NCBI RefSeq assembly: GCF_032594935.1
Contig: NZ_CP118734.1
Location: forward strand, 772,001 to 836,000
DNA: 64,000 nucleotides
Direction: 5' to 3'
Source: Streptococcus sp. 29892
Lineage (GTDB): Bacteria > Bacillota > Bacilli > Lactobacillales > Streptococcaceae
A model generated the notes under the pieces. The model saw only the letters and a list, made by a program, of their open reading frames with translations. It ran no database searches and had not been told where the DNA came from. Position numbers and translations under genes: made by a program. Position 1 is the stretch's first letter, and every line of letters begins with the position of its first letter. This document shows positions 3,104 to 54,750 of the stretch, in pieces.

Positions 3104-3317
3104 AATACAGCATCCCGTTTTCATTCATATCGATTTTCTTAAGAGCATATAGACAGGTCACTGCATCAGTAAATAGCGTGATACTGTCTATTTTTTTATA
3201 GAGTTTTATATAGAGTTCTCTTGGAGAATAATCATTATTTCGTAGTGCTTCTAAGATGATGGGAAAGAGAGGCAATATGCTTTTCTTATAAGAAACTGCT
3301 TTATTCGGTAATTTCAT
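3087..3317 (-). CDS. ABC-three-component system middle component (small winged-helix-like protein)
   Basis: A 76-residue protein beginning MKLPNKAVSYKKSILP. It lies between and overlaps both neighbours, the position and size of an ABC-3C middle component. The N-terminal LPNK motif, a helical block (ILEALRNNDYSPRELYIKLY) and a short C-terminal beta-like segment (MNENGMLYYV) fit the small winged-helix middle components, probably the MC6-like group. A GAGGTG Shine-Dalgarno six bases before the ATG at 3317 decides the start over an upstream ATG at 3329. In this family the middle component is thought to couple the ATPase to the effector. The exact subfamily is inferred. Confidence 0.7.
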   Translation of the reverse strand: MKLPNKAVSYKKSILPLFPIILEALRNNDYSPRELYIKLYKKIDSITLFTDAVTCLYALKKIDMNENGMLYYVKTN

Positions 3318-4482
3318 TGAACACCTCACAATTTTGGATAAAGTAAGATACGATAATTTTACATGCGTCTAAATGTCCATTGCTCAGTTTTGATTGATTT
3401 AAGAGCCAATTGGCAAGATTTTCTACGATCTCTGGTTGTGAGAGATTGGTATTAGCTAATTGAGTAAAAACTTTTTTTATATCACATTGAATCATTATGA
3501 AATTACTATTTTCAGCAAACAAGTCTTTTATGTATGAGAAATAAGTAAGTACGTGATATTGAACTGTTCCCCTTAAAACACTATGCTCAGGTAAGATTTT
3601 CTGATTGAGTTTAAGGGCGGTCATATTCAGGGTTGTTGAGCTTGAGCTTCCAGTATAATCGTTTAGTGCATCTATGACTTCGGTGATTTGTGTTTCAAGA
3701 TTTCCGTGATTCATAACTTCTTGAATCTCAGTTAACTTCTGAATTTCTTGTTTAATGGACAGTAACTTTTTATATTCGTCAATATCAGCATAGTTTTCAT
3801 ACTCGTTAGCGTCTTGAATACATAATGGGATTTTATTATCGTATGAATCTAATTTAGCTGGCGGGGGCATGAAATTCTTAAATTTATCTGCAGTATCCTT
3901 GTCAAGATTGGAAGAGAATATCTCTACTATTTTGTATGCTCGGATTGTAGTGTCTTTTTTTTGACGTGTTAATGGTTTCTGACAGAGAGGACATTTATTA
4001 CGAACCTGTTGTAAAAGCTCAATATCCTCAATTCTAGGTGCAGAATCAGTCATCTTATTCGTCTTGTTAAGGGCATATAGAAAAGAATAAGTTAAAAACT
4101 CAACTTCTTGCCCATTTTTTAAGTATCTTGCTAGTTCATCATACTTTTTCGGAGATGCTTCTGAATCACTGTTGATGCACTTTAATATGTTGTCGAAAAT
4201 ATCTTGCTTATTATGTATGCGTAAGTCAGAACAGATATTCTTTTCAAAATTTTTTAGCGTTGCTTGGATAATATTGTAATCGTTTGAAGCTTGGATAAAA
4301 GCACTATCAACTTCAATTTTTCTTTGTACGAGGCGAGTAATTTTTCGATCATCTATTGATGTTGTAATACCATTTAAATTAGATAACGGCTCAAGTAGTG
4401 TTATACCAAGCGGCCCCTGCTTTAAAGTTGTCATCCCAGGTAACAGAAGTTTTAAATATGAGGAAAAATTAAATTCTTGCAA
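3301..4482 (-). CDS. ABC-three-component system effector-type protein with CPLC zinc knuckle
   Basis: First gene of the ABC-3C operon, about 393 residues. Around residue 163 there is a CPLCQKPL knuckle, and about 60 residues later an NKIPLC segment followed by EYENY. The spacing recalls an HNH/treble-clef nuclease (CPLC, then N-x-I-x-LC), but the second zinc pair and the usual H residues are not visible, so it looks degenerate or highly diverged. The C-terminal third is helical and probably carries the domain that docks on the middle component. The start is chosen at TTG 4482 because AAAGGAG lies seven bases upstream; ATG 4500 has no ribosome-binding site and itself overlaps that site. Nuclease activity is inference. 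Confidence 0.65.
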   Translation of the reverse strand: MQEFNFSSYLKLLLPGMTTLKQGPLGITLLEPLSNLNGITTSIDDRKITRLVQRKIEVDSAFIQASNDYNIIQATLKNFEKNICSDLRIHNKQDIFDNILKCINSDSEASPKKYDELARYLKNGQEVEFLTYSFLYALNKTNKMTDSAPRIEDIELLQQVRNKCPLCQKPLTRQKKDTTIRAYKIVEIFSSNLDKDTADKFKNFMPPPAKLDSYDNKIPLCIQDANEYENYADIDEYKKLLSIKQEIQKLTEIQEVMNHGNLETQITEVIDALNDYTGSSSSTTLNMTALKLNQKILPEHSVLRGTVQYHVLTYFSYIKDLFAENSNFIMIQCDIKKVFTQLANTNLSQPEIVENLANWLLNQSKLSNGHLDACKIIVSYFIQNCEVFNEITE

Positions 4483-4607
4483 ATAATATTCTCCTTTCAA
4501 TGAAAAAATTGGTCACAAATTGGTCAAAAAGAGGACAAATACTTTTTGATTTCATTATCTTACAATAGCAATGTAAGTAAGTTACTCGAGATTTCTAGTT
4601 TTCTCTT

Positions 4608-4638: not shown

Positions 4639-4769
4639 ATTTCTTTGTAATGGCTTACATTTGCATGAAACCTATATTCGTTTGCTAGCACGACTTGAGG
4701 TGTAGGTATCAAAATTCAAATATCAGTATTTCAAGTCTACTGATTGTATATTAAGCAAAGGAAGTGCTT

Positions 4770-4868
4770 ATGCAATCAGAATTAAATATTTTTGTTGAGT
4801 CAATTGTCTCATTTTCTTTGCTATGCGATGAAAGCGAGACAAAATATGGCAAACCAAGTCAACCATAG
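4770..4868 (+). CDS. Small ORF preceding the sigma-like gene
   Basis: A 32-residue frame starts at ATG 4770 with a good AAAGGAAG ribosome-binding site six bases upstream, which the downstream sigma-like gene lacks. It ends at TAG 4866-4868, overlapping the likely start of that gene at 4846 by 23 bases. That layout fits translational coupling, or a frameshifted older start of the same gene. The peptide (MQSELNIFVESIVSF and onward) is partly hydrophobic and shows no recognisable domain. Confidence 0.4.
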   Translation: MQSELNIFVESIVSFSLLCDESETKYGKPSQP

Positions 4869-5451
4869 TCAATCTAACAATAATCCCTACCGTTATGAAT
4901 CCCAGAAATCATATGATGATCGTCCTTGTCTGTCGGGAGAAGTGCTAGCACCATTTGTTATTAAGGATAAAGTGATGCTAAGTGTGCTGAAAATCAATCG
5001 TAATAATTTAAGAACCTTTAAATTTGGAGGTAAATCAGTATTAGTTGGTTTTGTACCAGTTACTCTAGAAGAGTTTGATATCACTATGAAAGTATTCAAT
5101 GCTGATGTTCATGAGTATCTAAGTCGCCATTCTAGGAGTAAACTTGATACAACATCACTTGAAGAAATGATGGAAAGCAAGGATGGTATGAGGTCGTGTG
5201 GCTATGATCCTTCAGCTATTTCATCCTATGAAGAAACACTTATGCTGAATGAAACTTTGAAGGAGTTGATTGAAGTAGTATATCAACGTAGTCCTAAGCA
5301 TGGCAAAATTTTAAAACTGATATATGGTAATTATGAGATTACCAAGCAAGAAATCATCGCCAAAATGGGGATGAAAAAGACGCAAGGTTATGATGCAATC
5401 AAGAAAGCACATGCACTCGCAAAGGAGGTATATAAAGAACTAAATCAATAA
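4846..5451 (+). CDS. Sigma-70-like / HTH transcription factor, ICE or phage encoded
   Basis: About 201 residues. The C-terminal 60 residues (KILKLIYGNYEITKQEIIAKMG, then KTQGYDAIKKAH) resemble a sigma region 4 helix-turn-helix. The N-terminal half (RPCLSGEVLAPFVI and the following residues) is conserved-looking but lacks a clear sigma region 2. Starts at TTG 4792 and ATG 4828 are possible, but neither has a ribosome-binding site. ATG 4846 has a weak one and overlaps the small upstream ORF. Similar proteins are typical cargo of streptococcal ICEs. It sits just outside the prophage replication module and could alternatively be a phage regulator. Its target promoters are unknown; the three-copy element described below is one candidate. 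Confidence 0.55.
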   Translation: MANQVNHSQSNNNPYRYESQKSYDDRPCLSGEVLAPFVIKDKVMLSVLKINRNNLRTFKFGGKSVLVGFVPVTLEEFDITMKVFNADVHEYLSRHSRSKLDTTSLEEMMESKDGMRSCGYDPSAISSYEETLMLNETLKELIEVVYQRSPKHGKILKLIYGNYEITKQEIIAKMGMKKTQGYDAIKKAHALAKEVYKELNQ

Positions 5452-5490: not shown

Positions 5491-7446
5491 CTAGTCTTTC
5501 TGATAGAATAAGCATTCGTATCCGTCGGCGTGAAGATTAATATCGGAAATCCAGTCTGGTGCAATTCCCATTAATGATGCAATCTCATCAATTTTTTGTT
5601 CCATAGGACATTCAATTATTACTTCATCATGGACATGGCCTACAATATTAAACTCTTTCAGTCGCTTCAAAGAGTAAGCAAGAATGTCTCTACTGATAGC
5701 TTGGACAATGTTCTCCACAAATTTTGGACCATAACTTTCTAGTCTCTCCCAACGTTTGGCAGTTCCAGTCCCTTCGTAGGTGACAGACTCTCCACCGAAC
5801 TGGTTATCGTCAATTCTTGGTTTGATATATGATAGTTTACGACCAGATGGTAGGGTGATGAATAAAATGCCACTTTTAACTTCAAATTGAATACCGTGAG
5901 TTGATGTTGGAATTAGTTCCTTTACAGCAGTCTTTACAGCATTATCGACATCCCACCATAAGAGAACGATATTCGGATTTGCTTGACGCCATGAATTTAC
6001 AAGTGGTTGAAGTTCTTCCTCCGATAGTCCCATATCAATGGCACCCATGGCTTTGAGTGCACCGACTGAACCACCATATCCACAAGCAAGCTCCGCAATT
6101 TTCCCTTTTTGTCTCAATTCAGAATTTTGTCCATGTTTTTCAACTGGTACTCCAAACATCTGAGAAGCGGACATACAGTAGATGTCATTTCCTTGTTCAA
6201 ATACTTTACTGCGCCATCTCTCTTCAGCTAAGTGGGAGAGTACACGAGCTTCGATAGCTGAAAAGTCGCAAACAATGAATTTCTTTCCTTCACTTGGAAC
6301 GAAAGCGGTACGGATAAGTTGCGATAAGGTATCCTGAGTATCGTAGAGTAGCTCAATAGCTTCTAAGTCACCTTTTCTAAAAAGTTCCCTAGCTTCCCCA
6401 AGGTCAGGAAGATGGTTCTGAGGTAGATTCTGAAGTTGTACCAAACGACCAGCCCAACGTCCAGTTCGGTTTGCTCCGTAAAATTGGAACATCCCCCTTG
6501 CTCTACCATCCTTACACACACAGTTCATCATAGCCTGGTACTTAGAGACACTTGATTTGGCAGCTTGCTGACGAAGTTTGAGAACTTGAGCAGTTGTTTC
6601 ATCAACCGTTTTGAGGAGTCCTTTCACAGCTTTTTTATCTAGAGAATCAGTAGTTACTCCATGTTCACGTAACCAGCCAATCATCTGCAGAACAGAGTTG
6701 GGATTTTCAAGACCTGTTAATGCTTTTAACTCTTCTTGAATTTTGGCTTTGCTCTCTCTGTCTATTTTTATAGCGGCTTTTACAAAGTCAACATCTATGC
6801 CAATACCACGGTCATTAATAATCTGATCCTGGTGGTACTCATCCCAAACAAAATCAGGTACTGGGAAGTTTTTCAGTCGTTCCTTGATAGCCAATTCGAC
6901 CTCAACATCACGTCTGTTGTAATCGATAAAGGCAGACCACTTGTCAGGCGCGTGATGAGGAAAGTTACGAATTCGTCCCCCATTGACTTTGGTAGGCTTA
7001 CAAGGCACGCAGAAGTAGCGAATGAGGTCAGCCCCCTCTCTCATCTTTTTGTCTTTTAGTTTGAGAACTGTTCCAACTCCTTCTAAGGAAAGTGGGAGTC
7101 CTAAATATGCGGACCAAATCATGCTACACCGCCATGAATTAGGCGAGAGAAATCCATCTAATAATAATTCAGGATGATGTTTCTTGAGCCAGTTGGACAG
7201 ACAAATTCGCTCAAATGAAGCGTTGAATGCCCATTTGATGACTCTATCGTCTACTAAAGCTTCAAGAATATCTTGTGGTAACTTCTCTTTATTAAAGTCG
7301 TAAACAGTCACTGGTCCATTATCAACAGAAACCGCAAACAAAAGGAGTTCAAAACTGTCATCTTCCGCATAGCGATAGACACCAGATTTTCGTAGGTCAA
7401 TTTCGCAATAGGTTTCAATGTCGATGCTGAGTTCTTTAATCGGCAT
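5491..7446 (-). CDS. Phage DNA polymerase, family A with 3'-5' exonuclease domain
   Basis: A 651-residue replicative polymerase of Firmicute siphophages. The N-terminus carries the DEDD exonuclease motif DIET (residues 8-11). Polymerase motif A is CDFSAIEARVLSHLA near residue 393, motif B is RQKGKIAELACGYGGS, and motif C is VGHVHDEVIIE near residue 605. All expected carboxylates are present, so it should be active. It is the last gene of the leftward replication operon that begins near 9780. ATG 7446 is the first in-frame Met and is followed directly by the exonuclease domain. Together with the primase-helicase and the single-strand-binding-like protein it would make the phage largely independent of the host replicase. 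Confidence 0.92.
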   Translation of the reverse strand: MPIKELSIDIETYCEIDLRKSGVYRYAEDDSFELLLFAVSVDNGPVTVYDFNKEKLPQDILEALVDDRVIKWAFNASFERICLSNWLKKHHPELLLDGFLSPNSWRCSMIWSAYLGLPLSLEGVGTVLKLKDKKMREGADLIRYFCVPCKPTKVNGGRIRNFPHHAPDKWSAFIDYNRRDVEVELAIKERLKNFPVPDFVWDEYHQDQIINDRGIGIDVDFVKAAIKIDRESKAKIQEELKALTGLENPNSVLQMIGWLREHGVTTDSLDKKAVKGLLKTVDETTAQVLKLRQQAAKSSVSKYQAMMNCVCKDGRARGMFQFYGANRTGRWAGRLVQLQNLPQNHLPDLGEARELFRKGDLEAIELLYDTQDTLSQLIRTAFVPSEGKKFIVCDFSAIEARVLSHLAEERWRSKVFEQGNDIYCMSASQMFGVPVEKHGQNSELRQKGKIAELACGYGGSVGALKAMGAIDMGLSEEELQPLVNSWRQANPNIVLLWWDVDNAVKTAVKELIPTSTHGIQFEVKSGILFITLPSGRKLSYIKPRIDDNQFGGESVTYEGTGTAKRWERLESYGPKFVENIVQAISRDILAYSLKRLKEFNIVGHVHDEVIIECPMEQKIDEIASLMGIAPDWISDINLHADGYECLFYQKD

Positions 7447-7494
7447 AGTTTGTCCTTTCTGAAAAAGGTGACAGAAGTACTGCCACCTTGAGTT

Positions 7495-7662
7495 CTATTT
7501 GTTTTTTCGACTGAGTGGTATTTGACTAAGTTTCTCTTTCTTTCGTTTAGCCCTTCGTTCCATTTCATTTCGAATGTCATCTCTAATGGTCATATACCCG
7601 AAGTATAGTCCGATTAGCACCCAGAGACCCATAATAGTACAAGTTAAAATAGTATACATCAT
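7495..7662 (-). CDS. Small membrane protein, hypothetical (55 aa)
   Basis: On the minus strand, ATG 7662 follows a GGAGA ribosome-binding site and opens a 55-residue frame. A hydrophobic stretch (ILTCTIMGLWVLIGLYFG) forms one likely transmembrane helix. It is followed by a charged tail (RNEMERRAKRKKEKL) that would be cytoplasmic by the positive-inside rule. It fits neatly between the DUF2815 gene and the polymerase and belongs to the same leftward operon. I do not recognise a family. Confidence 0.6.
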   Translation of the reverse strand: MMYTILTCTIMGLWVLIGLYFGYMTIRDDIRNEMERRAKRKKEKLSQIPLSRKNK

Positions 7663-7680
7663 CAATCTAATTCTCCATTT

Positions 7681-8229
7681 CTAGTTCAAAAAGTCATCAT
7701 CGTCCTCTGTCGCAAAATCATCCTCAGCACGAGTGCGTCCACCGAGGGGTTCACCATCACGCAATTTTTGCAAGTTATTCAAACCGCAAGCAATGCCTTT
7801 GTTGCCATTGGAATTAAATGCATAAAAGGTGATAGAAGCACGACCATAGATACCTGAGTAGAGTTCAGACGTATCGATAATTTCTTGGCGGTTGCCATCA
7901 ACGACTCCAGGTTTGTGTGGAGAGTTGGCATTTACGAAGTAAGCATTTTTGTAAGCTTCATCATCAGGGCGTTCAAGGTCACCATCACGAAGTGGAGTTT
8001 TCAGAGTAGATAATGCAGGTACTGATTTGCCATTGCCTTTGAGTTTTGACTCACCTTCTTTATAGGCTTGCTCAATGGCTACTTTGATCTTGTTAATGGT
8101 AGCAGTATCCTCTTTTGGGATGATGAGTGAGGCACTGTACTTGGGAATACTACCGTTAATCGACTTTGGCTCATTGGCATTTAAGTAGCTGAAGCGAGTG
8201 TTTGGTCCTGTAATTACTTTAGTTGTCAT
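7681..8229 (-). CDS. DUF2815 protein, likely phage single-stranded-DNA-binding protein
   Basis: A 182-residue protein starting MTTKVITGPNTRFSYLNANEP and ending in a very acidic tail (EDDFATEDDDDFLN). An acidic C-terminal tip is typical of SSB-like proteins that recruit partners. DUF2815 proteins sit next to phage family A polymerases and are regarded as ssDNA-binding. ATG 8229 is preferred over an upstream ATG at 8253 because GAGG lies just before it and it follows the previous gene's stop by a few bases. It probably coats single strands during phage replication or recombination. The binding role rests on family knowledge and the tail. Confidence 0.75.
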   Translation of the reverse strand: MTTKVITGPNTRFSYLNANEPKSINGSIPKYSASLIIPKEDTATINKIKVAIEQAYKEGESKLKGNGKSVPALSTLKTPLRDGDLERPDDEAYKNAYFVNANSPHKPGVVDGNRQEIIDTSELYSGIYGRASITFYAFNSNGNKGIACGLNNLQKLRDGEPLGGRTRAEDDFATEDDDDFLN

Positions 8230-8233
8230 ATAG

Positions 8234-9355
8234 TTAATCCTCTTTAAATTCATTTTTTGCTAGGTTCATCTCTTGACGGCTATCGTCAATTGGAACGAGT
8301 ATTGGTTTACCACTTGGTTTTATTACGAGACCACCAAGTAGGTCGTTAAAGGTTTTCTTGCCAAGTAATTTTGTCATGGCAGTGATAGTGAGTAGTTTCT
8401 TTTCGTAAGGGTCAAATCCAGCTTCCATCACAGCTTGACTCACGGCAGTTTCATCTGAGTATTTACGAACAGAACGACCTTCAACCAGTTTGTATCCTGG
8501 GATAGGATATCCATCTGTTGCTTGATTTAATGCATAAGCTTTGATGTCGTTTGCCCATGAAATCAACAAGTCTAGCTTAGGTAAAATCTCTGCAATATCC
8601 CCGTTATCAAGAGTAGCTGGATTTGCAAACTCCATCTTGGCAAGAGCCAAATTATCCTCCGCACGTTTACGACAGACAGTCTTTAGTTTACAGAATTGGC
8701 AGTGTTTACCAGACTGCATATCCCCCTCACCTTTGAATGCAAGTTCAGCTTTTGGAGCGAGTTCATTTTCAGCCCATTCAAGCAACTCAGTCTTTTCTAT
8801 CTCAAAGGTAGATATGTTATGTTTTCGTGGTTGAAAGATGGTCATGGTGACTTTATCAAAATCATAAAGCCCATCAAACATCTCAAGAGCACCGAGGGCA
8901 TAACACATCATTTGTGGGTTATGGTCTGCATCAACTAGAACACCAAGTCCGTGCTTATAATCAATAACCTGAAGAAGTCCATCTGCCACAATAAGGCAAT
9001 CTCCAGTTCCAAATCCTTCAGGTACCCACTTAGAAAAGTCCAGTCGTTGTTCGATAAGAACTGTAGGGTCACGAGAGTAGCCTCTGGCTTTCTCGACTTG
9101 TTGCATGACATAGTTGCGGTATTCTTCAGCGCAATCCTGTATTTCATTGTTATAAAATGCTAAATCCTCAGTTGGATCACGCGTTTTCCTTCCTAGAGCT
9201 TTCTCGACTAGATAAGCACACAACTCGTGAGCATCCGTACCTTCAAGGGCAAACTCAGAGGTTACATCTGGCATATTTTCTGTTAACCGAACAGATGGTG
9301 GGCAGTTCAACCAACGATGTGATGCAGAAGCAGATAGAATGGCGTGGTTAGTCAT
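8234..9355 (-). CDS. DUF2800 protein, RecB/Cas4-like PD-(D/E)XK nuclease
   Basis: A 373-residue protein beginning MTNHAILSASASHRWLNCPP. This is the N-terminal SAS-x-W-x-CP motif of RecB/Cas4-type nucleases, which often contributes an iron-sulfur cysteine. The core has GTGDCLIV, then LLQVIDYKHGLGV (D-Y-K, catalytic D-x-K), and a later cysteine cluster HCQFCKLKTVCRKRAED that would complete a 4Fe-4S site with the first cysteine. It sits between the DUF2815 gene and a coiled-coil protein in the replication operon and likely processes DNA ends in phage replication or recombination. ATG 9355 overlaps the upstream stop, a typical coupled start; a longer frame exists from 9436. Confidence 0.82.
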   Translation of the reverse strand: MTNHAILSASASHRWLNCPPSVRLTENMPDVTSEFALEGTDAHELCAYLVEKALGRKTRDPTEDLAFYNNEIQDCAEEYRNYVMQQVEKARGYSRDPTVLIEQRLDFSKWVPEGFGTGDCLIVADGLLQVIDYKHGLGVLVDADHNPQMMCYALGALEMFDGLYDFDKVTMTIFQPRKHNISTFEIEKTELLEWAENELAPKAELAFKGEGDMQSGKHCQFCKLKTVCRKRAEDNLALAKMEFANPATLDNGDIAEILPKLDLLISWANDIKAYALNQATDGYPIPGYKLVEGRSVRKYSDETAVSQAVMEAGFDPYEKKLLTITAMTKLLGKKTFNDLLGGLVIKPSGKPILVPIDDSRQEMNLAKNEFKED

Positions 9356-9671
9356 TTCCAATCCCTCCAGCTTCTTCAAGGACTGCCGCAAAGTGTTTAG
9401 GGTCAAGAGCTGATAGAGAAGAAGCACCGTAAGCATTTAGAAGAGCACGAACTTCATTCTTAAATCCATCTTTAGCTTTAGTCGCAAGGACTGTACGGAC
9501 ATCCTCCAATTGAATTTCCTTTTGTGATTCATTTTTTGGTGGATTTGATTTAGGTACTGTTTGCTCCTCAGAAGAGAGGAGTTTCTTGAACTCGTCCACC
9601 AATCGAAGATAGTACTTTGCGGTTTCTTCCATATCATTAATTAGTCTATTCAGTTCTTTCATTTTGCTCAT
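9348..9671 (-). CDS. Phage protein with N-terminal coiled coil, hypothetical
   Basis: A 107-residue protein. Residues 1-35 (MKELNRLINDMEETAKYYL and following) are predicted coiled coil, followed by a polar linker. The C-terminal half (VRTVLATKAKDGFKNEVRALLNAYG) resembles the small helical domain found in phage proteins called Rrp5-like or hypothetical. It overlaps the next gene's start (8 bp) and the previous gene's stop, so it belongs to the same polycistronic unit. The function is unknown; a structural or recruiting role in the replication module is a guess from position. Confidence 0.6.
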   Translation of the reverse strand: MSKMKELNRLINDMEETAKYYLRLVDEFKKLLSSEEQTVPKSNPPKNESQKEIQLEDVRTVLATKAKDGFKNEVRALLNAYGASSLSALDPKHFAAVLEEAGGIGND

Positions 9672-9780: not shown

Positions 9781-9790
9781 TTTGTGACCT

Positions 9791-9906
9791 CCTATCTTAT
9801 TAGGTAGAGATGTGAACAGAAATTCTGGTTTTTATTAAAAATTTTTTGAATCGATGTATTTCATCTCTTACACCTATATAGGTAATACTGGGATGTAATT
9901 TTCCGC
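9791..9906 (-). promoter_or_regulatory. Copy A of composite phage control element, plus leader hairpin
   Basis: On the minus strand GCGGAAAA (9906-9899) is followed, exactly 23 nt from its first base, by the palindrome ACCTATATAGGT (9883-9872). GCGGAA-N17-ACCTAT has the spacing of a -35/-10 pair. Further down, the transcript passes through CTACCTAATAAGATAGGAGG (9806-9787), a near-palindrome that could fold and cover the ribosome-binding site of the 9780 gene. The same pieces recur at 10004 and 40865. The divergent stretch 9781-10087 has no other gene. Confidence 0.6.
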
Positions 9907-10003
9907 TTTTTTATAAAAAATTTTTATTTTGGCATAAAAGAAAATAATCTTCCTCTAGCTATATAAAGGAAGATTATTTTTTTTGAAAAAAATGTTATTA
10001 AGG

Positions 10004-10044
10004 GCGGAAAAATGAGTCGTAGTTCTACCTAATAAGGTAGGAGG
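10004..10044 (+). promoter_or_regulatory. Copy B of composite phage control element
   Basis: GCGGAAAA at 10004 and, exactly 23 nt later, ACCTAATAAGGT (10027-10038) inside the longer palindrome CTACCTAATAAGGTAG, followed directly by GAGG. It faces rightward 44 bases before the primase gene. Identical geometry to copies A and C suggests a shared promoter or operator, recognised by the same factor. Confidence 0.65.
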
Positions 10045-10087: not shown

Positions 10088-12373
10088 ATGCAATTTACCT
10101 TATCTTATTCTGGACAGACTGGGGTTCAGACAACCACGGTTTATCCCAATCAAGTAACTATTACTGATGAAATATCGCTACAAACTGTTGCGAAATTCGA
10201 CCATGTGGCAGGGCAGTTTTTAAACAATACACGCTCAAATACCAATTTCGTCAAGTCGGACGTTTTGGTCATGGATATTGATAATCACCACACTGAAAAT
10301 CCAGATGAGTGGATAACTATAGAGAGATTAAAAGAAATCTTTGCGGATTATAACTTTGCCTTGGTAACTAGTCGAAGTCACATGCAGGCTAAGGCAGGAA
10401 AAGCTCCAAGACCAAAATTTCATATTTACTTCCAAATCAATGAGGTAACTGATAAAGATGTCTACGTAGCTATGAAGGAAGAACTCTGTAATCAGTACAA
10501 GTTTTTTGATGATCATGCCAAGGATGCGGCACGTTTCTTCTTTGGAAATCCAAATGCACAGGTTATATGGCATGATTCATGGCTAACTATTGATGAAGAT
10601 TTGTTTCAAGTTGTTTCTATTGAAGACGAGGAAGATTTCGATGCAGACTTCTATACTCCTCCAAGTGGACCAATCCAGCAAGGGAGTCGTAATTCAACGA
10701 TGTCTGTATTTGCAGCTAAGATTGTCAAACGGTTAGGCGTGACCCAAGAAGCAAGGGATGGCTTTGATGAACAAGCTGAAAAGTGTGAACCACCATTGGA
10801 TAAAGCGGAGTTAGATACCATATGGGGCAGTGCAGTACGTTTCTACAATAAAACCATTAAAAGTTCTGAAGGTTATGTTTCACCAGAACAGTTTAATCGA
10901 GAAACACTGAGACCAGATGACTACTCCGATGTCGGTGAAGCAGGAGTATTGGCTCGTGAGTATTGTGACAAATTAGCTTATACCAATGCGACAGATTATC
11001 TCTATTACGATGGAACGCATTGGCGTGAGAACAAGCAGTTGGCATTAGGGGCAGTTGTACACTTTACTGATGAACAACTTGCTGAAGCGAATGCACTCTT
11101 GGAATCTGCAGAGAAGCAACTTCAGTCTTCAGGTATTGATGAATTGACCATTAAGGCTGGTGGAAAGCGACTAGAAAATGCAGTCGAAACTCCACTTCAG
11201 TTGAAATATTTAAAAGCCTATCTAGCAGCTAAAGAGTTTCATAAATTTGTTATGAAACATCGTGACTATAAGAATTTGATGGCTGTCTATAATACAGCTA
11301 AACCAATGCTTTCAGTAGAATTGTCAGAATTAGATAGTGATGACTTATTACTCAATACGCCAGAGGCTACCTATGATTTACGAAAAGGAATAAATGGGTC
11401 ACAAGAACACAATCCTGAAGATTATATAACTAAAATGACAGCAGTCTCTCCTAGTGATCAGGGTATGGGATTATGGCAGGAAACTTTAGCTACCTTTTTC
11501 TGTAATGACCAAGAATTAATTGATTATGTTCAAGAAATTATTGGTATGGCGGCAATCGGTAAGGTCTATCAGGAACATATGATTATTGCCTATGGAGGCG
11601 GAGCGAACGGCAAGTCTACTTTTTGGAATACCATTGCTCGTGTGCTAGGTAGCTATTCAGGTAAATTATCTGCGGATGCTTTAACGATGTCAAACAAGCG
11701 AAATGTCAGTCCTGAGCTTGCTGAGCTTAAAGGGAAACGTCTGGTCATTGCTTCTGAGATGGCAGAAGGGATGAGACTCAATACAGCTGTTGTTAAGCAG
11801 ATTACCTCAACAGATGAAATCCAAGCTGAGAAAAAGTACAAGGATCCTTTTCACTTCGTGCCATCACATACGCTGGTTCTTTATACCAACCATCTGCCTA
11901 AAGTAGGAGCGAACGATGATGGAACTTGGCGACGTTTGGTTGTTATTCCCTTTAATGCCAAAATCACTGGTCGCTCTGACATCAAAAACTTTGCGGACCA
12001 TTTGTATGACAATGCAGCACCAGCAATTTTGTCTTGGATTATCGAAGGTGCAGAAAAAGCTATCAAAGCGAACTTTAAAACAAAAGTACCAACTGCGGTA
12101 TCTTCTTCCGTCAAAGCCTATCGTGAGGCCAATGATTGGTTAGGACACTTCCTTAGTGAGTGTTGTCAAGTTGGTGATCAGTTGACAGAAAAATCAGGAG
12201 AACTATACAGTCAGTATCGTGCTTATTGCGCCAAGAACATGGAGTACACACGCAGTACGACCGATTTTTATTCTGCTCTTGATCAGGCAGGGTTTAAGCG
12301 AAAACGGACAAGTAAAGGTAACTTCATTCTTGGTTTGAAATTGGTTGATGATGACTATGATTTCTTAGATTAA
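10088..12373 (+). CDS. Phage primase-helicase, P4/D5 type (Prim-Pol plus SF3 helicase)
   Basis: A 761-residue replication protein. The N-terminal third carries a primase-polymerase-like segment (VLVMDIDNHH near residue 57, then PRPKFHIYFQ). The middle shows the D5 N-terminal type region (DYLYYDGTHWRENK). The C-terminal half is a superfamily 3 helicase with Walker A GGGANGKST near residues 504-512, an SEMAEG Walker B-like block and a YTNHLPKVGANDDGTWRRL sensor region, then a winged-helix tail. It is expected to unwind and prime phage DNA for the family A polymerase encoded across the divergent promoter. TTGGAGGG precedes ATG 10088. Confidence 0.9.
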   Translation: MQFTLSYSGQTGVQTTTVYPNQVTITDEISLQTVAKFDHVAGQFLNNTRSNTNFVKSDVLVMDIDNHHTENPDEWITIERLKEIFADYNFALVTSRSHMQAKAGKAPRPKFHIYFQINEVTDKDVYVAMKEELCNQYKFFDDHAKDAARFFFGNPNAQVIWHDSWLTIDEDLFQVVSIEDEEDFDADFYTPPSGPIQQGSRNSTMSVFAAKIVKRLGVTQEARDGFDEQAEKCEPPLDKAELDTIWGSAVRFYNKTIKSSEGYVSPEQFNRETLRPDDYSDVGEAGVLAREYCDKLAYTNATDYLYYDGTHWRENKQLALGAVVHFTDEQLAEANALLESAEKQLQSSGIDELTIKAGGKRLENAVETPLQLKYLKAYLAAKEFHKFVMKHRDYKNLMAVYNTAKPMLSVELSELDSDDLLLNTPEATYDLRKGINGSQEHNPEDYITKMTAVSPSDQGMGLWQETLATFFCNDQELIDYVQEIIGMAAIGKVYQEHMIIAYGGGANGKSTFWNTIARVLGSYSGKLSADALTMSNKRNVSPELAELKGKRLVIASEMAEGMRLNTAVVKQITSTDEIQAEKKYKDPFHFVPSHTLVLYTNHLPKVGANDDGTWRRLVVIPFNAKITGRSDIKNFADHLYDNAAPAILSWIIEGAEKAIKANFKTKVPTAVSSSVKAYREANDWLGHFLSECCQVGDQLTEKSGELYSQYRAYCAKNMEYTRSTTDFYSALDQAGFKRKRTSKGNFILGLKLVDDDYDFLD

Positions 12374-12657
12374 TGACCAACATTTTTAGCCACCTTACCT
12401 CCACAAGAGAGGTGATGGACTATTTTAGGTGTGTAGGTCGTTGACTGAATGGTTGGAACTTATTTTGAGTGAGGTTTCAGATAAATGATTAAAACGACCA
12501 GCATGAGTGACATTTTTTGATTTTGTGTAGGTCTATTATGGTCTTTTCTAAAACTATCCTATAAGCAAAAATTACTATAAAAAAAGCCTATAAGAGGAGT
12601 TTTGGAAATGACTGCACTAGACCTACACACTTCAATTTGATGAAAGGATTTAGAACG
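12374..12657 (+). other. Gene-free stretch with repeated GTGTAGGTC motifs
   Basis: No credible gene. GTGTAGGTC occurs at about 12430 and 12525, and its inverted copy GACCTACAC at about 12615. The last two form a roughly 11-bp inverted repeat (TGTGTAGGTCT / AGACCTACACA) about 90 bases apart. A small hairpin (CACCTTACCTC / GAGAGGTGATGG) lies near 12395-12423. This may be a protein-binding or origin region next to the primase gene; no function is shown. Confidence 0.4.
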
Positions 12658-12939
12658 ATGAGAGAAAAGTACGTTGAGCAAGCTTTGGTGAAATCTGTGA
12701 AAGCTAGAGGAGGCATTTGTCCTAAGTGGGTATCACCATCTTTTTCTGGTGTGCCAGACAGGTTGGTATTTTTACCCAATGGCAAGTTTGGCTTGGTGGA
12801 AGTAAAAGCTCCTAACCAAAAGCCAAGGATGTTGCAAGTGTCAAGGCATAAACTGTTCGAGCGGTTAGGTTTCAAGGTTTATGTGATTGACCGAATTGAG
12901 ATGATTGGAGAGGTGCTAGATGAAATTGACATTACATAA
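12658..12939 (+). CDS. VRR-NUC domain nuclease
   Basis: A 93-residue protein consisting of a single VRR-NUC fold. EQALVKSVKARGG is the N-terminal helix with its catalytic Glu, GVPDRLVFLPNGKFGLVEVKAPN contains the PD and E-x-K catalytic residues, and the end (RHKLFERLGFKVYVI) is the typical closing strand. Phages often encode this nuclease beside a SNF2 helicase, and the two genes overlap by 20 bases here. It may resolve branched DNA in replication or recombination. ATG 12658 has AAGGA ten bases upstream; an ATG at 12640 is possible. The family call is secure; the phage role is inferred. Confidence 0.85.
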   Translation: MREKYVEQALVKSVKARGGICPKWVSPSFSGVPDRLVFLPNGKFGLVEVKAPNQKPRMLQVSRHKLFERLGFKVYVIDRIEMIGEVLDEIDIT

Positions 12940-14296
12940 CTATCAGGTAGTCGCCAAGGACTTCATCATAGCTCACCCTTATGCAGCAGTCATCCTAGAC
13001 ATGGGGATGGGAAAGACAGCTACAACCTTGTCTGCGGTGAATGAGCTGATGTTTGATAGGTTTGAAGTCACTAAAGTTTTGGTTATTGCCCCACTTCGAG
13101 TCGCAAATACGGTTTGGAGTGATGAGATTGAGCAATGGGCGGAGTTGCGTCACTTGCGTTATTCGAAAATTGTTGGAACACCAAAGCAACGAAAAGTAGC
13201 TCTCCAGAAAGATGCGGATATCTATATCGTCAATCGTGAAAATCTCCCTTGGTTGGTGGAACAATGTAGTCCCTATTTCAAGTGGGATATGGTAGTGATT
13301 GATGAATTGAGTTCTTTCAAGTCTTGGCAGTCCAAGCGTTTCAAAGCCTTCATGGCTATGCGACCTTACATGAAACGTATCGTTGGTTTGACAGGAACTC
13401 CAAGCTCAAATGGACTGATGGACTTGTTCGCAGAGTTTAAAGTCATTGACGGAGGTGAACGTCTTGGTCGGTTCATCGGTGAGTTTCGTAGTCGCTACTT
13501 TGAAGAAGGTCGTCGCAATGGAAACATTGTTTATGAATACATCCCTATGGATTATGCGGAGTGTCAAATTCAAGACAAGATTAGTGATATTACCATTTCC
13601 ATGAAAGCCCTAGACTATTTGGATATGCCTGAATTGATTTCAACCAAGAAACTGGTGCGTATGTCAGAAAAGGAAAAAGAAAAATACAGTCAGTTTAAGA
13701 AAGAGTATGTATTGTCAGAGTTAGACGGACTAGAAGTAACTGCCGCAAATGCTGCAAGCCTGACGAACAAGTTAGTTCAGTTGTCCAATGGAGCTGTATA
13801 TTCTGATGATCATACGGTTGTGGCATTACATGAACAAAAACTAGATGCCCTTGAAGATATCCTTGAATCCGCAAATGGAGAACCTGTCTTAGTTGCCTAT
13901 TGGTTCAAACATGACTTAGCTCGGATTATTGGACGTTTAGAAAAACTCAAGGTAAAGAGTCGGTTGTTGAAAACAGAAGAAGATATTCGTGAATGGAACA
14001 AGGGAAATGTCCCAGTTGGCTTACTTCATCCAGCTGGAGCTGGTCATGGGTTGAACCTCCAAAAAGGCGGCCACCACTTGGTCTGGTTTGGATTAACATG
14101 GTCTTTGGAATTATACCAACAAACCAATGCACGCCTTTGGCGTCAAGGCCAGGAGGCTGAGACAGTTGTTATTCAACACATTGTGACTGAAGGAACGATT
14201 GATGAGGAAATCCTGAAGGCACTAGAAAACAAAGATGCACAACAAGAACGGCTAATTGAAGCTGTTAAAGCACAAGTAGGAGGGGCAGATGGATAA
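12920..14296 (+). CDS. SNF2-family DEAD/DEAH helicase (phage replication/recombination)
   Basis: A 458-residue SF2 helicase of compact phage type. The motifs run in order: Q-like LHNYQVVAKDFI at the start, Walker A ILDMGMGKTATTLS near residues 30-40, LVIAPLRVANTVW (Ia), VIDELSSFK (DE-box with DELS), GLTGTPSSNGLMDLFAEF (III), and in the second lobe a GLNLQKGGHHLVWFG block and QTNARLWRQGQ (VI, with the arginine finger). It overlaps VRR-NUC upstream and the regulator downstream (8 bp), so the three are translationally coupled. It likely remodels or unwinds DNA with VRR-NUC. All motifs look intact. Confidence 0.9.
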   Translation: MKLTLHNYQVVAKDFIIAHPYAAVILDMGMGKTATTLSAVNELMFDRFEVTKVLVIAPLRVANTVWSDEIEQWAELRHLRYSKIVGTPKQRKVALQKDADIYIVNRENLPWLVEQCSPYFKWDMVVIDELSSFKSWQSKRFKAFMAMRPYMKRIVGLTGTPSSNGLMDLFAEFKVIDGGERLGRFIGEFRSRYFEEGRRNGNIVYEYIPMDYAECQIQDKISDITISMKALDYLDMPELISTKKLVRMSEKEKEKYSQFKKEYVLSELDGLEVTAANAASLTNKLVQLSNGAVYSDDHTVVALHEQKLDALEDILESANGEPVLVAYWFKHDLARIIGRLEKLKVKSRLLKTEEDIREWNKGNVPVGLLHPAGAGHGLNLQKGGHHLVWFGLTWSLELYQQTNARLWRQGQEAETVVIQHIVTEGTIDEEILKALENKDAQQERLIEAVKAQVGGADG

Positions 14297-14765
14297 GGCA
14301 GAGCACATACTGACGAATTACAATGAACTCAAAAGTGACTTGGATATGTTAAAGTATCGTTTGGAACATTTCAAACCAGTGACAGAAAATGAGGTTATTG
14401 GTTCACTCGTTTTTGAAAAATCTGATGAGCCTAGAGTTAAAAGTTCACCTACCAATCAAAGGTCAGAGATGATTGCACTGAATTTTCGAGAGAAGATGAT
14501 TCAGGAAAATGAGGAACAATTGGCGGATTTATCGCAACGGTATATCCGATTGGCTAATGACCTTGATAATTTTGAGATGGCTTTAAAATTTCTTAAGGGA
14601 GATTTATATGATTTTGCGCAATCCATGCTTAAGATAGATAGTAATTGGGATAGCTTGATGAGAGAGTTTCATATTAGCCGAAGTACTGTTAGAAATTGGC
14701 GACGTAAGGTCTTAGACCATGTTAGGGAAGTGTATATGAAAATGGGATTTTCTTTGGAAAAGTAA
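14289..14765 (+). CDS. Phage transcriptional regulator, sigma-like / ArpU-DUF1492 type
   Basis: A 158-residue protein with a helical N-terminal two thirds and a C-terminal helix-turn-helix (NWDSLMREFHISRSTVRNWRR). This architecture matches the late-gene regulators (ArpU/DUF1492-like) that sit at the end of the early operon in Gram-positive phages. It overlaps the SNF2 gene by eight bases. Directly after its stop begins an array of nine 11-bp TGACCT units, an obvious candidate for its own binding site ahead of the downstream genes. The assignment as late activator is inferred from family and position. Confidence 0.7.
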   Translation: MDKAEHILTNYNELKSDLDMLKYRLEHFKPVTENEVIGSLVFEKSDEPRVKSSPTNQRSEMIALNFREKMIQENEEQLADLSQRYIRLANDLDNFEMALKFLKGDLYDFAQSMLKIDSNWDSLMREFHISRSTVRNWRRKVLDHVREVYMKMGFSLEK

Positions 14766-16914: not shown

Positions 16915-17376
16915 ATGGACGAAAGTCAACGCAAACAAATCTGGAAAATGCGAGCAGAAGGTCTTGGCTATGGCTTAATCGGTAAGGCTACAGGACTATC
17001 TAGAGATTCTGTTAAAAAATACTGTAAACGAAATCCAGCATTGCTTGGTCATGGAGCGGCGACAAAGCAAATGGCAAAAGCCGACCAGATTGATGGACTC
17101 CGTTGCCCTCAGTGTTATCAAACACTTAAAATTCATAAAGTAGGAAGACCAAAGAAGTTCTGTTCGGATAAGTGTCGTAAGGTTTGGTGGACAACACATT
17201 CTGATGAACACGATAAATCAAAAACCGCATATGAAGATTTGACTTGCCAGCAATGTGGCAGGTCATTTTTATCTTATGCCAATCCAAATAGGAAATTTTG
17301 TAGCCATTCGTGTTACATTCAATCACGCTTTTATAAAGGAGAAACCAATGACAAGCCAACCAACAATGGAAATTAG
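16915..17376 (+). CDS. HTH and zinc-finger phage protein
   Basis: A 153-residue protein. The N-terminus (KQIWKMRAEGLGYGLIGKATGLSRDSVK) is a helix-turn-helix of the sigma-region-4 or resolvase type. It is followed by two C2-C2-like zinc knuckles: CPQCYQTLKI with FCSDKCRKVWW, and CQQCGRSFLSY with FCSHSCY. This HTH plus paired zinc-ribbon layout is common in phage DNA-modification and packaging regions, but no fixed function is known to me. ATG 16915 follows AAAGGA. The gene overlaps the methyltransferase start by 29 bases, so expression is probably coupled. It may guide methyltransferase or packaging functions; that is speculation. Confidence 0.6.
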   Translation: MDESQRKQIWKMRAEGLGYGLIGKATGLSRDSVKKYCKRNPALLGHGAATKQMAKADQIDGLRCPQCYQTLKIHKVGRPKKFCSDKCRKVWWTTHSDEHDKSKTAYEDLTCQQCGRSFLSYANPNRKFCSHSCYIQSRFYKGETNDKPTNNGN

Positions 17377-40864: not shown

Positions 40865-40904
40865 GCGGAAAAATTACTCCCAAACCTACCTAGTAAGGTA
40901 GGAG
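40865..40904 (+). promoter_or_regulatory. Copy C of composite phage control element, upstream of the recombinases
   Basis: GCGGAAAA at 40865 and ACCTAGTAAGGT at 40888, exactly 23 nt apart, inside CCTACCTAGTAAGGTAGG and followed by AGG. The word TTACTCCCA after GCGGAAAA matches TTACATCCCA of copy A. It is 123 bases upstream of the first recombinase gene and points to co-regulation of excision and replication genes. Confidence 0.65.
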
Positions 40905-41026
40905 GAATATTTGTATTCCATGAACTGTGGCATAAATTTATCAGGTCGAAATAGTTGGTCTGATAACTTGACTAATATTCCCTTTAGAGTGATATATAGT
41001 GTGCCATTACATAGGAAGGAGAGTAA

Positions 41027-42268
41027 ATGTCCGTAAAGAAGATTAGAGTCAATAGACAAAAACATAGGAAGAGGGTCTGTGCCTACATTCGAGTTTCGAC
41101 GACTAATGGAAGTCAGTTAGATTCATTAGAAAATCAGAAGCAGTATTTTGAAAACCTGTATTCTATTAGAGACGATATTGATTTTATAGGTGTTTATCAT
41201 GACAGAGGTATATCTGGTTCTAAGGATAATCGTCCAAATTTTCAAGCTATGATTGAAGATTGTCGTAGAGGTAAGATTGATGTTATTCATACCAAGTCAA
41301 TTGCACGCTTTGCCAGAAATACGGTTACAGTTCTTGAAATTAGTCGTGAACTGAAGGCAATAGGAGTAGACATATTCTTTGAGGAGCAAAACATTCATAC
41401 CCTTTCAAGTGAGGGGGAAGTGATGCTTTCGGTATTAGCTAGTATCGCAGAGGACGAGTTAAGGAGTATGAGTGGCAATCAACGTTGGGCATTTCAAAAG
41501 AAGTTCCAACGAGGTGAGCTAGTCATTAACACCAAGCGATTCTTAGGATACGATTTAGACGAGAATGGTGAATTGATTATCAATCCAGAAGAAGCTTTGA
41601 TAGTCAGGCAAATATTTGCACTTTACCTTGAAGGGTATGGTACTCACCGTATTGCCAAGCTGTTAAATGAAAAGGGCGTTGCGACTGTTACAGGTGCTAA
41701 ATGGCATGACAGCACAATCCGTCAAATGTTAAGCAATGAAAAATACAATGGTTCGGTCTTATTGCAGAAGTATTTTCACGATGGTGTGAATGGTCCTAAA
41801 AAATTGAATCAGGGTGAACTCGAAAAATATTTTATAGAGGATAATCATGAAGCTATTATTTCCATGGAGGATTGGCAAACAGTCCAGGACAAACTAAGCA
41901 GTAGAAGATGGCAAAAAGGTAGAAACAAAACCTATAAATTTACGGGGTTATTAAAGTGTCAGCATTGTGGTTCGACTTTAAAGAGACAAGTTTCTTACAA
42001 GAAAAAAATTGTTTGGTGCTGTTCCAAATACATAAAAGAAGGCAAAGTAACTTGTCAGGGGATGCGAGTGCCAGAAGTAGATATTTCAAATTGGGAGATA
42101 ACCTCACCTGTTACAGTAATAGAAAGGGATAGAAATGGGGAAAAGTATTACAGTTATACCGGCCAAGAAAGTGCAGACCAGTGTTCTTCATCAGGACAGG
42201 AAGAAAATCAAAGTAGCCGCATATTGCCGAGTGTCCACCGACCAAGAAGAGCAGCTATCAAGTTATGA
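41027..42268 (+). CDS. Large serine recombinase 1
   Basis: A 413-residue serine recombinase. The resolvase domain is VCAYIRVSTTNGSQLDSL (nucleophile Ser24), then SIARFARNTVTVLEI, followed by the recombinase domain (GYDLDENGELIINPEEA) and a zinc ribbon (CQHCGSTL, then WCCSKYIKEG). Strong AGGAAGGAG before ATG 41027. The C-terminal 45 residues are encoded in the 134 bp overlapping the next gene and look out of family, so this end may be a read-on. Confidence 0.9.
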   Translation: MSVKKIRVNRQKHRKRVCAYIRVSTTNGSQLDSLENQKQYFENLYSIRDDIDFIGVYHDRGISGSKDNRPNFQAMIEDCRRGKIDVIHTKSIARFARNTVTVLEISRELKAIGVDIFFEEQNIHTLSSEGEVMLSVLASIAEDELRSMSGNQRWAFQKKFQRGELVINTKRFLGYDLDENGELIINPEEALIVRQIFALYLEGYGTHRIAKLLNEKGVATVTGAKWHDSTIRQMLSNEKYNGSVLLQKYFHDGVNGPKKLNQGELEKYFIEDNHEAIISMEDWQTVQDKLSSRRWQKGRNKTYKFTGLLKCQHCGSTLKRQVSYKKKIVWCCSKYIKEGKVTCQGMRVPEVDISNWEITSPVTVIERDRNGEKYYSYTGQESADQCSSSGQEENQSSRILPSVHRPRRAAIKL

Positions 42269-43523
42269 AAACCAAGTTAATTATTACCGAGAGTTTATCT
42301 CTAAACACGAGGACTATGAGTTAGTTGACATCTATGCGGATGAGGGCATCTCAGCAACCAATACCAAAAAACGCGATGCTTTTAATCGCTTGATACAAGA
42401 TTGTAAGGCTGGTAAGGTGGATAGGATTTTGGTCAAGTCGATCAGTCGCTTTGCCAGAAACACCCTTGATTGTATCAAATACGTCCGAGAGCTGAAAGAA
42501 CTGGGTGTTGGTGTGACTTTTGAAAAGGAGAATATTGACAGCCTGGATTCCAAAGGTGAAGTTCTCCTTACAATCCTTTCTTCCTTAGCACAGGATGAGT
42601 CACGCTCTATCTCAGAGAATGCGACGTGGGGAATTCGTAAGAAGTTTGAACGTGGGGAAGTTCGGGTGAATACCACAAAGTTCATGGGTTATGACAAGGA
42701 TGAAAATGGTAAGCTTATCGTTAACCCTCAGCAAGCCGAAATAGTTAAATTAATATACGGGAAATACTTAGAGGGGTATAGTCCCGAGTCCATAGCTAAG
42801 TATTTGAATGACAATGAAATACCTGGTTGGACAGGAAAGGCAAATTGGTATCCTAGTGCTATACAGAAAATGCTTCAAAATGAAAAGTACAAAGGTGATG
42901 CCTTATTACAAAAGACTTTTACCGTTGATTTTCTGACTAAGAAACGAGTTCAAAATGATGGCCAGGTCAACCAATACTATGTGGAAGGTAGCCATGAGGG
43001 CATCATTGATGAGGAGACTTGGGAGACAGTTCAACTGGAAATCGCCAGGCGTAAAACCTACCGAGAGGAACACCAGCTCAAGTCCTATATCATGCAGAGT
43101 CAGGACAACCCCTTTACCACCAAGGTGTTCTGCGGAGCCTGCGGGTCAGCCTTTGGGCGGAAGAATTGGGCAACCAGCCGAGGTAAACGCAAGGTCTGGC
43201 AATGTAACAACCGCTATCGCATTAAGGGAGTGGAAGGGTGTTACAGTAGCCATTTGGATGAGGCGACACTTGAGCAGATTTTCTTAAAGGCATTAGAGCT
43301 ATTAAGCGAGAACATCGACTTGCTTGATGGCAAGTGGGAGAAAATCTTAGCAGAGAATCTACTGCTTGACAAGCACTACAGCATGGCATTGAGTGACTTG
43401 CTTAAGCAGAAGCAGATGGACTTCAACCCCTCTGACATCTGCCGAGTGCTAGACCATATCAGGATAGGACTTGATGGAGAGATTACGGTTCGATTCCTGG
43501 AAGGAACTGAGGTGGGCTTATAA
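42135..43523 (+). CDS. Large serine recombinase 2
   Basis: A 462-residue serine recombinase related to recombinase 1. VAAYCRVSTDQEEQLSSYENQ has Ser34, RFARNTLDCI follows, then the recombinase domain GYDKDENGKLIVNPQQA and a zinc ribbon (FCGACGSAFGR, WQCNNRYRIKG). It overlaps recombinase 1 by 134 bp in another frame. Two adjacent recombinases of this kind are known in the streptococcal phi-m46.1-type phages; they may act together or split integration and excision. The attP site is expected near this 3' end. It ends 9 bp before a strong terminator. Confidence 0.92.
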   Translation: MGKSITVIPAKKVQTSVLHQDRKKIKVAAYCRVSTDQEEQLSSYENQVNYYREFISKHEDYELVDIYADEGISATNTKKRDAFNRLIQDCKAGKVDRILVKSISRFARNTLDCIKYVRELKELGVGVTFEKENIDSLDSKGEVLLTILSSLAQDESRSISENATWGIRKKFERGEVRVNTTKFMGYDKDENGKLIVNPQQAEIVKLIYGKYLEGYSPESIAKYLNDNEIPGWTGKANWYPSAIQKMLQNEKYKGDALLQKTFTVDFLTKKRVQNDGQVNQYYVEGSHEGIIDEETWETVQLEIARRKTYREEHQLKSYIMQSQDNPFTTKVFCGACGSAFGRKNWATSRGKRKVWQCNNRYRIKGVEGCYSSHLDEATLEQIFLKALELLSENIDLLDGKWEKILAENLLLDKHYSMALSDLLKQKQMDFNPSDICRVLDHIRIGLDGEITVRFLEGTEVGL

Positions 43524-44837: not shown

Positions 44838-44852
44838 ATGGAGGAAAATCAC

Positions 44853-52822: not shown

Positions 52823-53231
52823 GAAAAGTATCCTAGATTGTACTGAATTAGAAGAACGTATTCACCAAGCTGAAACCAATCAGCTATTACAAAAGATACT
52901 GTCGCTCCCCAATTTTGATTGTGACTTTGAGGTGACTTTTGAAGATGATTACCACAAAGAGATGAATGATCCCCTATTCTACGAATCCAATCTTCATCAG
53001 ATTTCGGATTTTATGGAAACTAGGGATATTAAAAATGGTGTAGATACACTACTGACGAAAGACAATCACCTGGCCTTTCGTGCCTTTGGTGAAAATTATT
53101 CTGCTAGAGGAAAGGATGGCATTTTAACGACTTTAGTGATAGTCAAGTGCTTTGGTGAAGGACGGATGCCCATTGCTATGAGACGAATCATCTCATCAAG
53201 AACATCTGCAAGTGAAATCCCTTTTGTATAG
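52806..53231 (+). CDS. ICE hypothetical protein overlapping abiEii
   Basis: A 141-residue acidic protein (NLLHKKSILDCTELEERIHQ and DDYHKEMNDPLFYESNLHQI). No known domain. Starts at ATG 52806, overlapping the methyltransferase by 17 bp. The last 40 codons overlap the 3' end of the convergent abiEii gene by 136 bp. The tail (MPIAMRRIISSRTSAS) looks like antisense of AbiEii, so this reading frame may have lost its original stop. Confidence 0.6.
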   Translation: MNLLHKKSILDCTELEERIHQAETNQLLQKILSLPNFDCDFEVTFEDDYHKEMNDPLFYESNLHQISDFMETRDIKNGVDTLLTKDNHLAFRAFGENYSARGKDGILTTLVIVKCFGEGRMPIAMRRIISSRTSASEIPFV

Positions 53232-54645: not shown

Positions 54646-54750
54646 TCTTTTCCCTGAATTTATTGTGATAACAAAATCAAGCCTTCTTTTTTATGATGAG
54701 GAAAGAGTGACAAATTGTTGCTAGAGAATAAAAGAAAAGAAGGACTATTT

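Follow-up and report, generated by a model that had tools for sequence, protein, structure and literature searches.

The 64,000-nt stretch of the Streptococcus sp. 29892 genome analyzed here in full (hereafter, the window) seems to hold a phage-private class of promoters, which would not be expected to be recognized by the main host sigma factor and would be read by host RNA polymerase carrying the product of a small phage gene, S, which would be sigma-like and kept off in the lysogen; we would give this reading a probability of about 0.7. The sites in question stand ahead of the polymerase, primase and recombinase operons both in the window and in its relatives, and, as the promoter recurs in related Firmicutes phages and changes together with S, it is probably S that acts as the switch out of dormancy.

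The promoter element and its copies

An exact pattern scan of the window returned the three copies of GCGGAA-N17-ACCTA that had been reported in the initial annotation, at 9906(-), 10004(+) and 40865(+), the first letters of GCGGAA and ACCTA being exactly 23 nt apart in each, while the chance expectation is 0.00 and at least three copies were seen in 0 of 100 dinucleotide shuffles of the window. The palindrome described there was likewise found at all three positions (ACCTA-N3-AGGT), and neither box resembles a sigma-A hexamer upon inspection, which agrees with what had been said of them. Overlooked at that time were an A-tract that precedes the first box, a conserved AAGnTAGnAGG block that comes after the second one, and a fourth site of the same geometry but with a weakened first box (CCAGAA-N17-ACCTA at 9828(-)), recovered by a looser scan; its counterpart in relatives reads CCGGAA, one such sequence being common to 12 loci. 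The elements and the structures around them are as follows.

9788..9828, minus strand: degenerate second promoter element of the polymerase operon (CCAGAA 9828-9823, N17, ACCTA 9805-9801)
9866..9906, minus strand: promoter element C, polymerase/replication operon (GCGGAA 9906-9901, ACCTA 9883-9879), also present in relatives
about 9908-9930: A-tract of element C, upstream of 9906(-)
9936..9985, no strand assigned: inverted repeat with flanking A- and T-runs between the divergent promoters, spotted by eye
about 9984-9999: A-tract of element A, upstream of 10004(+)
10004..10044, plus strand: promoter element A, primase operon (GCGGAA 10004-10009, N17, ACCTA 10027-10031, ATAAGGTAGGAGG to 10044), the site being present in relatives as well
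40865..40905, plus strand: promoter element B, serine recombinase operon (GCGGAA 40865-40870, ACCTA 40888-40892, GTAAGGTAGGAGG to 40905)

The inverted repeat is a probable bidirectional terminator, and the AGGAGG within the degenerate element stands where a ribosome-binding site would be expected for a small ORF that starts at 9780. Downstream of the elements lie three gene runs, the minus-strand one having DNA polymerase A as its last gene.

5491..9671, minus strand: PHROG 408 protein, DUF2800, Enc34-type ssDNA-binding protein and DNA polymerase A, downstream of 9906 and 9828
10088..14765, plus strand: D5/VapE-like primase-helicase, VRR-NUC, SNF2 helicase and PHROG 36 regulator, downstream of 10004
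41027..43523, plus strand: two large serine recombinases, downstream of 40865

Beyond the window, the host genome (one contig, 2.06 Mb) contains one further perfect match to GCGGAA-N17-ACCTA, at 841893 of that contig (G000:C1:841893), and, over the whole 2.06 Mb, 0 matches to the reversed pattern and none to the V-type pattern introduced below. This copy is situated upstream of a second serine recombinase pair (locus L005, 5892-8502; G000:C1 from 841893), whose DNA is 91.6% identical to that of the window pair, which shares the promoter, and whose second gene is apparently split into two ORFs. Only one S gene was found in the host genome, yet the second pair bears the promoter, and its expression may depend on the S of the prophage in trans. 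Directly before the recombinase genes of the window (~40960-41010), a conserved ACTTGA-N-CTTTAGAGTGATATATAGT is also to be seen, which is present ahead of the recombinases in other streptococcal records too, is less well conserved in G034 and G035, and may be either a sigma-A promoter or a site of the att kind.

Conservation among related phages

Looking for the geometry in related phages had been proposed along with the element itself, and there it proved to be conserved: among 127 loci sampled via the primase (49 genome loci and 78 viral loci), the closest relatives being prophages of Streptococcus suis and other streptococci, 193 matches were distributed over 83 loci ranging from Streptococcus to Lachnospiraceae, as opposed to 14 matches in 14 loci for the reversed pattern, with 8 loci having the V-type instead and 36 having neither type. 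All 59 streptococcal loci (assigned by record name or primase identity) carry a C- or V-type element, so that none of them is among the 36 lacking both. Outside the streptococci, the element is carried by, among others, Lachnospiraceae, Blautia, Peptoniphilus and one Veillonellaceae record. In a wider sequence pool with redundant loci, a few of the matches being coding, [ACG]CGGAA-N17-[AGC]C[CT]TA was matched 209 times at a spacer of 17 vs. 2-21 times at each spacer of 12-16 and 18-23. Of 40 phage records, 37 contained VCGGAA-N17-NCYTA (124 matches vs. 17 reversed, summed over rows, a few of these being chance matches in coding sequence), the usual layout being two to three sites in the polymerase/primase region plus one ~30 kb away, which, in the records fetched, precedes the recombinases, at times separated from them by small genes.

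The C-type consensus, built from 39 elements less than 70% identical pairwise, reads AAAAATTTTT, 8 nt, CCGGAAAA and then ACTTAGnAAGnTAGAAGG, with T at -11 from the first box in 93% of that set. Scored against the UP-element consensus, the A-tract of 45 representatives reached 9.07 of 14, and shuffled sequences reached 7.73. The RNA immediately following the promoters is only moderately enriched in hairpins over shuffled sequence, a stem score of at least 6 being attained by 65% of 57 sites vs. 30% of shuffled ones, some of the 57 being chance coding matches; an Rfam search at the promoter site gave no match (best E 0.27).

Concerted change of the first box

Seven records (G012, G015, G016, G017, G018, G027 and phiStag1, i.e., W01), here called V-type, have RGACTAAA where the C-type has SCGGAA. 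The exchange concerns both divergent promoters and leaves the distance to the second box unchanged, and RGACTAAA is met again upstream of the recombinases ~30 kb away, resulting in three sites per record. The V-type pattern has 23 matches in 9 of the 40 phage records (reversed control: 1). Four of the seven (G012, G017, G018 and G027) have C-type sites as well, at the recombinase end and nowhere else; G014 has a V-type site before the recombinases only, next to a C-type one; and G007 shows a V-type plus C-type pair at the position corresponding to the recombinase end of G014. G012, G018 and G027 have GCGGAA..ACTTA, CCGGAA..ACCTA and RGACTAAA one behind the other at 57-bp intervals, an arrangement that is probably one allele.

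Gene S and its weak likeness to sigma factors

4846..5451, plus strand: gene S, PHROG 2513, 201 aa, convergent to the polymerase operon, its ORF being open from 4792

All 14 of the S proteins sampled match the PHROG 2513 profile (best E 2e-107), a family with no function assigned in PHROG, and in the listed part of the phage records (40 of 45) it carries either the annotation “hypothetical protein” or none, the exception being phiStag1 (“sigma-70 family”). In the streptococcal records fetched in full, S adjoins the polymerase operon or sits one gene off; of five non-streptococcal contigs, three contain it (G032, G034 and G036), and it was not found in G035 or in the fetched 40 kb of G030.

The S profile, when aligned with 19 ECF-type sequences (same-class genomes, a usable ORF having been obtained from 19 of 30 loci, two of the 19 being short fragments), gave an hhalign P of 5e-4 and a probability of 32%, vs. 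P=0.47 for the reversed control, the alignment running from the last part of region 2 through region 4, by which S would weakly resemble the C-terminal half of ECF sigma factors. Pfam yielded no sigma match for 14 members, NCBIfam no significant one (FliA/WhiG far sub-threshold, E 0.039), and a PDB search with S no sigma among its matches, while the PHROGs gave one weak match to a sigma family and one weak match to a “transcriptional activator”.

Association of promoter class with the class of S

Across the 58 records having S within the locus, which are partly non-independent (6 further records do not have it there), two-box promoters with a spacing of ~17 nt that change when S changes are what was found, the S class being concordant with the polymerase/primase promoter class in 51, discordant in 5 and unscored in 2. 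Counted by record, S1/2 goes with ACCTA in 15 and with ACTTA in 2, S4 with ACTTA in 30 and with ACCTA in 1 (2 unscored), and S_V with V in 6, with ACCTA in 1 and with ACTTA in 1. The five mispaired records include the S_V phages G013 and G014 with C-type polymerase/primase promoters, and L007 and L058, both among the five, are identical in sequence. At the recombinase end, a V-type site is present in 8/8 S_V records holding that end (G012, G014-G018, G027 and W01; G013, a 20-kb fragment, is outside this count) and in a single non-S_V record, G007 (S4). The ACCTA/ACTTA distinction is lost there (ACCTA in the S4 records G002 and G020, ACTTA in the S2 record G021), and, as the V-type is kept where ACCTA/ACTTA is not, the first box is the firmer specificity link.

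Since S is located only 4 to 5 kb from the promoters, and since a gene-by-gene V/C ranking over full records had not singled it out (AUC 0.967 and 0.95 for S, the same 0.967 and 0.95 for DUF2800, and 1.0 for an overlapping-frame ORF inside the primase), a pairwise linkage control was made using 34 non-identical records of 47 (L207 and L212 unscored, 11 duplicates dropped). The AUC for shared promoter class was 0.82 for S, vs. 0.62 for the polymerase, 0.61 for ssb, 0.58 for DUF2800, 0.64 for PHROG 408 and 0.63 for the primase, and, with only the C-type records considered, 0.81 for S vs. 0.48-0.61 for the compared genes. Label permutation brought the AUC of S to a maximum of 0.69 over 500 rounds, and the bootstrapped difference between S and each other gene had means of 0.19-0.25, with intervals including zero for ssb, PHROG 408 and the primase. 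Nearest-neighbour prediction of the promoter class succeeded for 29/34 records with S, 27 with the primase, 25 with either the polymerase or PHROG 408, and about 20 with ssb or DUF2800. Judging by these sequence comparisons, promoter type goes more closely with S than with the genes that separate S from the promoters.

The structured leader of S

4692..4848, plus strand: structured S leader, with hairpins 4692-4698/4731-4737, 4740-4746/4773-4779 and 4804-4810/4836-4842

The second hairpin surrounds position 4770, the start of a leader ORF of 32 codons overlapping S, and the third (4804-4810/4836-4842), the pairing of which was read directly from the window sequence, as the window row is gapped there in the alignment, is found just before the S start. 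Nineteen S leaders (window plus 18 relatives) share five helices with 30 pairs, 92.5% paired, vs. 81.9 for shuffled and 38-49 for slid alignments; 17 pairs have changed on both sides, and covariation is 0.380 vs. 0.191, as scored on the same alignment from which the structure had been derived. Rfam returned nothing at gathering thresholds in the S-holding loci of four relatives, and no C or V element was present within 600 nt upstream of the 18 S genes examined. The leader looks like a translational control coupled to the leader ORF.

Proposed mechanism and its rivals

The promoter, in the mechanism that we propose, would be composed of an UP-element-like A-tract, a first box SCGGAA at the -35 position, 17 nt, NCYTA-N2-AAG as the -10 region and a conserved start region, to which host RNA polymerase would be redirected by S, a compact sigma-like factor of PHROG 2513 predicted to bind both the polymerase and the boxes. 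S would be held off in the lysogen, probably partly at translation, by means of its structured leader and the short upstream ORF, and, once made upon induction or infection, would turn on, from predicted start sites, both divergent replication operons and the recombinases at the opposite prophage end at once. The initial interpretation had been a promoter for a phage-specific sigma factor or, alternatively, a combined promoter-operator, and it is the sigma part that the conserved geometry, the concerted switch and the tracking by S argue for, the operator part having come out weaker. A repressor operator over the promoter in the form of the ACCTA..AGGT palindrome would suit the clean palindromes at the three copies of the window, but a clean palindrome is largely streptococcal, the conserved part being CYTA-N2-AAG, and in the ACTTA, GCTTA and CCTTA relatives it is imperfect while the boxes and their spacing persist, for which the operator-only reading was rejected and the combined one is held to be improbable.

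Were S an activator that attaches to the SCGGAA/RGACTAAA box and brings sigma-A-bearing host RNA polymerase to a weak -10 (the TA-N2-AA within CYTANNAAG), then the weakness of its similarity to sigma factors, confined as it is to the last part of region 2 through region 4, its weak PHROG “transcriptional activator” match alongside the one to a sigma family, and the TA-N2-AA that follows the second box in the C-type consensus would all be accounted for. Against this speak the conservation of both boxes and the start region at fixed spacing, with little likeness to sigma-A promoters, and the second-box classes (ACCTA/ACTTA), which also track S; an activator is, in our estimate, a minority possibility, and a true sigma factor would be favored over it by about three to one. 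All in all, the sequences support S as a putative sigma factor.

Three helix-turn-helix genes had been named as candidates for acting upon the element, and only the one at 4846, which is S, tracks the promoter type, the ones at 14289 (PHROG 36) and 16915 (PHROG 2308) failing to do so. PHROG 36 is a transcriptional-regulator family, and a PHROG 2308 relative at the V-type recombinase end is, in phiStag1, annotated as “RNA polymerase subunit sigma-70” and located directly behind a V-type promoter, such a relative being also present in G012, G014, G015, G017, G018 and G027. The subtypes of PHROG 36, however, score equally in L061 (C) and L077/L096 (V) and very differently in L009 and the window, which share one promoter type; the other PHROG 2308 copy has the same score in V-type G016 and C-type G004; and the extra PHROG 2308 gene, which has zinc-ribbon/HNH-like matches, is lacking there in V-type G016 but occurs in C-type G021. 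The switch is therefore left unexplained by PHROG 2308, though this gene stays alive as a second candidate. With neither subtype nor presence tracking promoter type, both families were rejected as promoter readers, and another phage HTH protein in this role is about as improbable as the operator. A host alternative sigma factor, for which sigma-H at staphylococcal int promoters offers a precedent in Staphylococcus aureus (PMC2869324), is rejected as very unlikely, given the concerted first-box switch inside one phage subclade within the same host genus and the occurrence of the element in hosts of several families. Least probable of all would be replication-origin or recombination sites that are not promoters: two to three copies do adjoin the replication genes, but the copy ~30 kb off precedes the recombinases and points into them, and this reading was rejected as well.

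Comparison with known systems

Phage sigma or sigma-like proteins redirecting host RNA polymerase are known from the SPO1/T4-type sigma cascades and from Xpf of PBSX, which concern middle or late genes, whereas the operons here are those for replication and excision of a temperate phage. The nearest known kind is SigN (ZpdN) of the Bacillus subtilis plasmid pBS32, a mobile-element sigma factor whose private regulon comes on after DNA damage (PMC6751061, PMC10601692), much as S is proposed to be a mobile-element sigma with a regulon of its own. SigN promoters are, in the part of Table 2 of PMC6751061 compared by eye, mostly TTTACGTTT and AGATATAA, unlike the SCGGAA/NCYTA seen here, and the C-type consensus does not fit the SigN consensus given there. 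The SigN gene, moreover, is described as having LexA-repressed and SigN-dependent promoters, whereas S has its structured leader and, for the 18 S genes mentioned, no C/V element within 600 nt upstream. The sigma-H int promoter of S. aureus is similar in being a conserved non-sigma-A promoter of a Firmicutes prophage recombination gene, and different in that the sigma is host-encoded, serves int only and is reported in PMC2869324 for staphylococcal prophages only; the conserved int-upstream sequence depicted there differs, by eye, from the C-type consensus. Phage sporulation-type sigma factors are treated in PMC9429907.

Implications

It is conceivable, albeit at odds that we would place somewhat below even, that S is the first recognized representative of a compact phage sigma family with exchangeable, partly orthogonal specificities and leader-mediated silencing, mobile recombinase modules collecting tandem promoters for several S types; if this were true, the tandem promoters would allow any S in the cell to turn on a recombinase in trans, and cross-talk between neighboring mobile elements is suggested. 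What is offered is a candidate switch gene, three likely target promoters and a leader RNA, together with an exchange of specificity found in nature (GCGGAA to GACTAAA), which could serve as an internal control. The element-bearing phage group includes phi1207.3 and phi-m46.1, both with S matches, which are, according to titles and beginnings of abstracts, elements carrying resistance genes among streptococci. No induction regulator for the phi1207.3/phi-m46.1 group was found in the literature as judged by titles and the beginnings of abstracts, and the main text of PMC9927172 contains neither “repressor” nor “promoter” nor “regulat”; likewise, no description of these promoters or of S was encountered in titles and beginnings of abstracts, in a search mostly outside subscription journals.

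Other observations

The PHROG 2308 gene with HTH and zinc-ribbon matches that lies before the recombinases occupies 3144-3545 of L264 in phiStag1 and has counterparts in G012, G014, G015, G017, G018, G021, G027, G032, G034, G035 and G036. S lies beside DUF2326 and ABC-three-component CTD11 genes in the window (1460-4500), a probable defence module, and adjoins a TenpIN-like type III toxin, below the curated cut-off of that family, in phiStag1 (L136, 33133-33675). Elsewhere in the window, 17255-19459 codes for a 734-aa ParB/N6-N4 methyltransferase with internal intein and Hint matches below curated cut-offs (the related ORF of G016 is 446 aa), and 44838-46772 for a protein of 644 aa that is EF-G-like by its domain matches and presumably resembles the product of a ribosomal-protection tetracycline resistance gene. 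An AbiEi/AbiEii type IV toxin-antitoxin pair (53096-54579) is followed by a cell wall-anchored surface protein of the Antigen I/II family (54715-59646).
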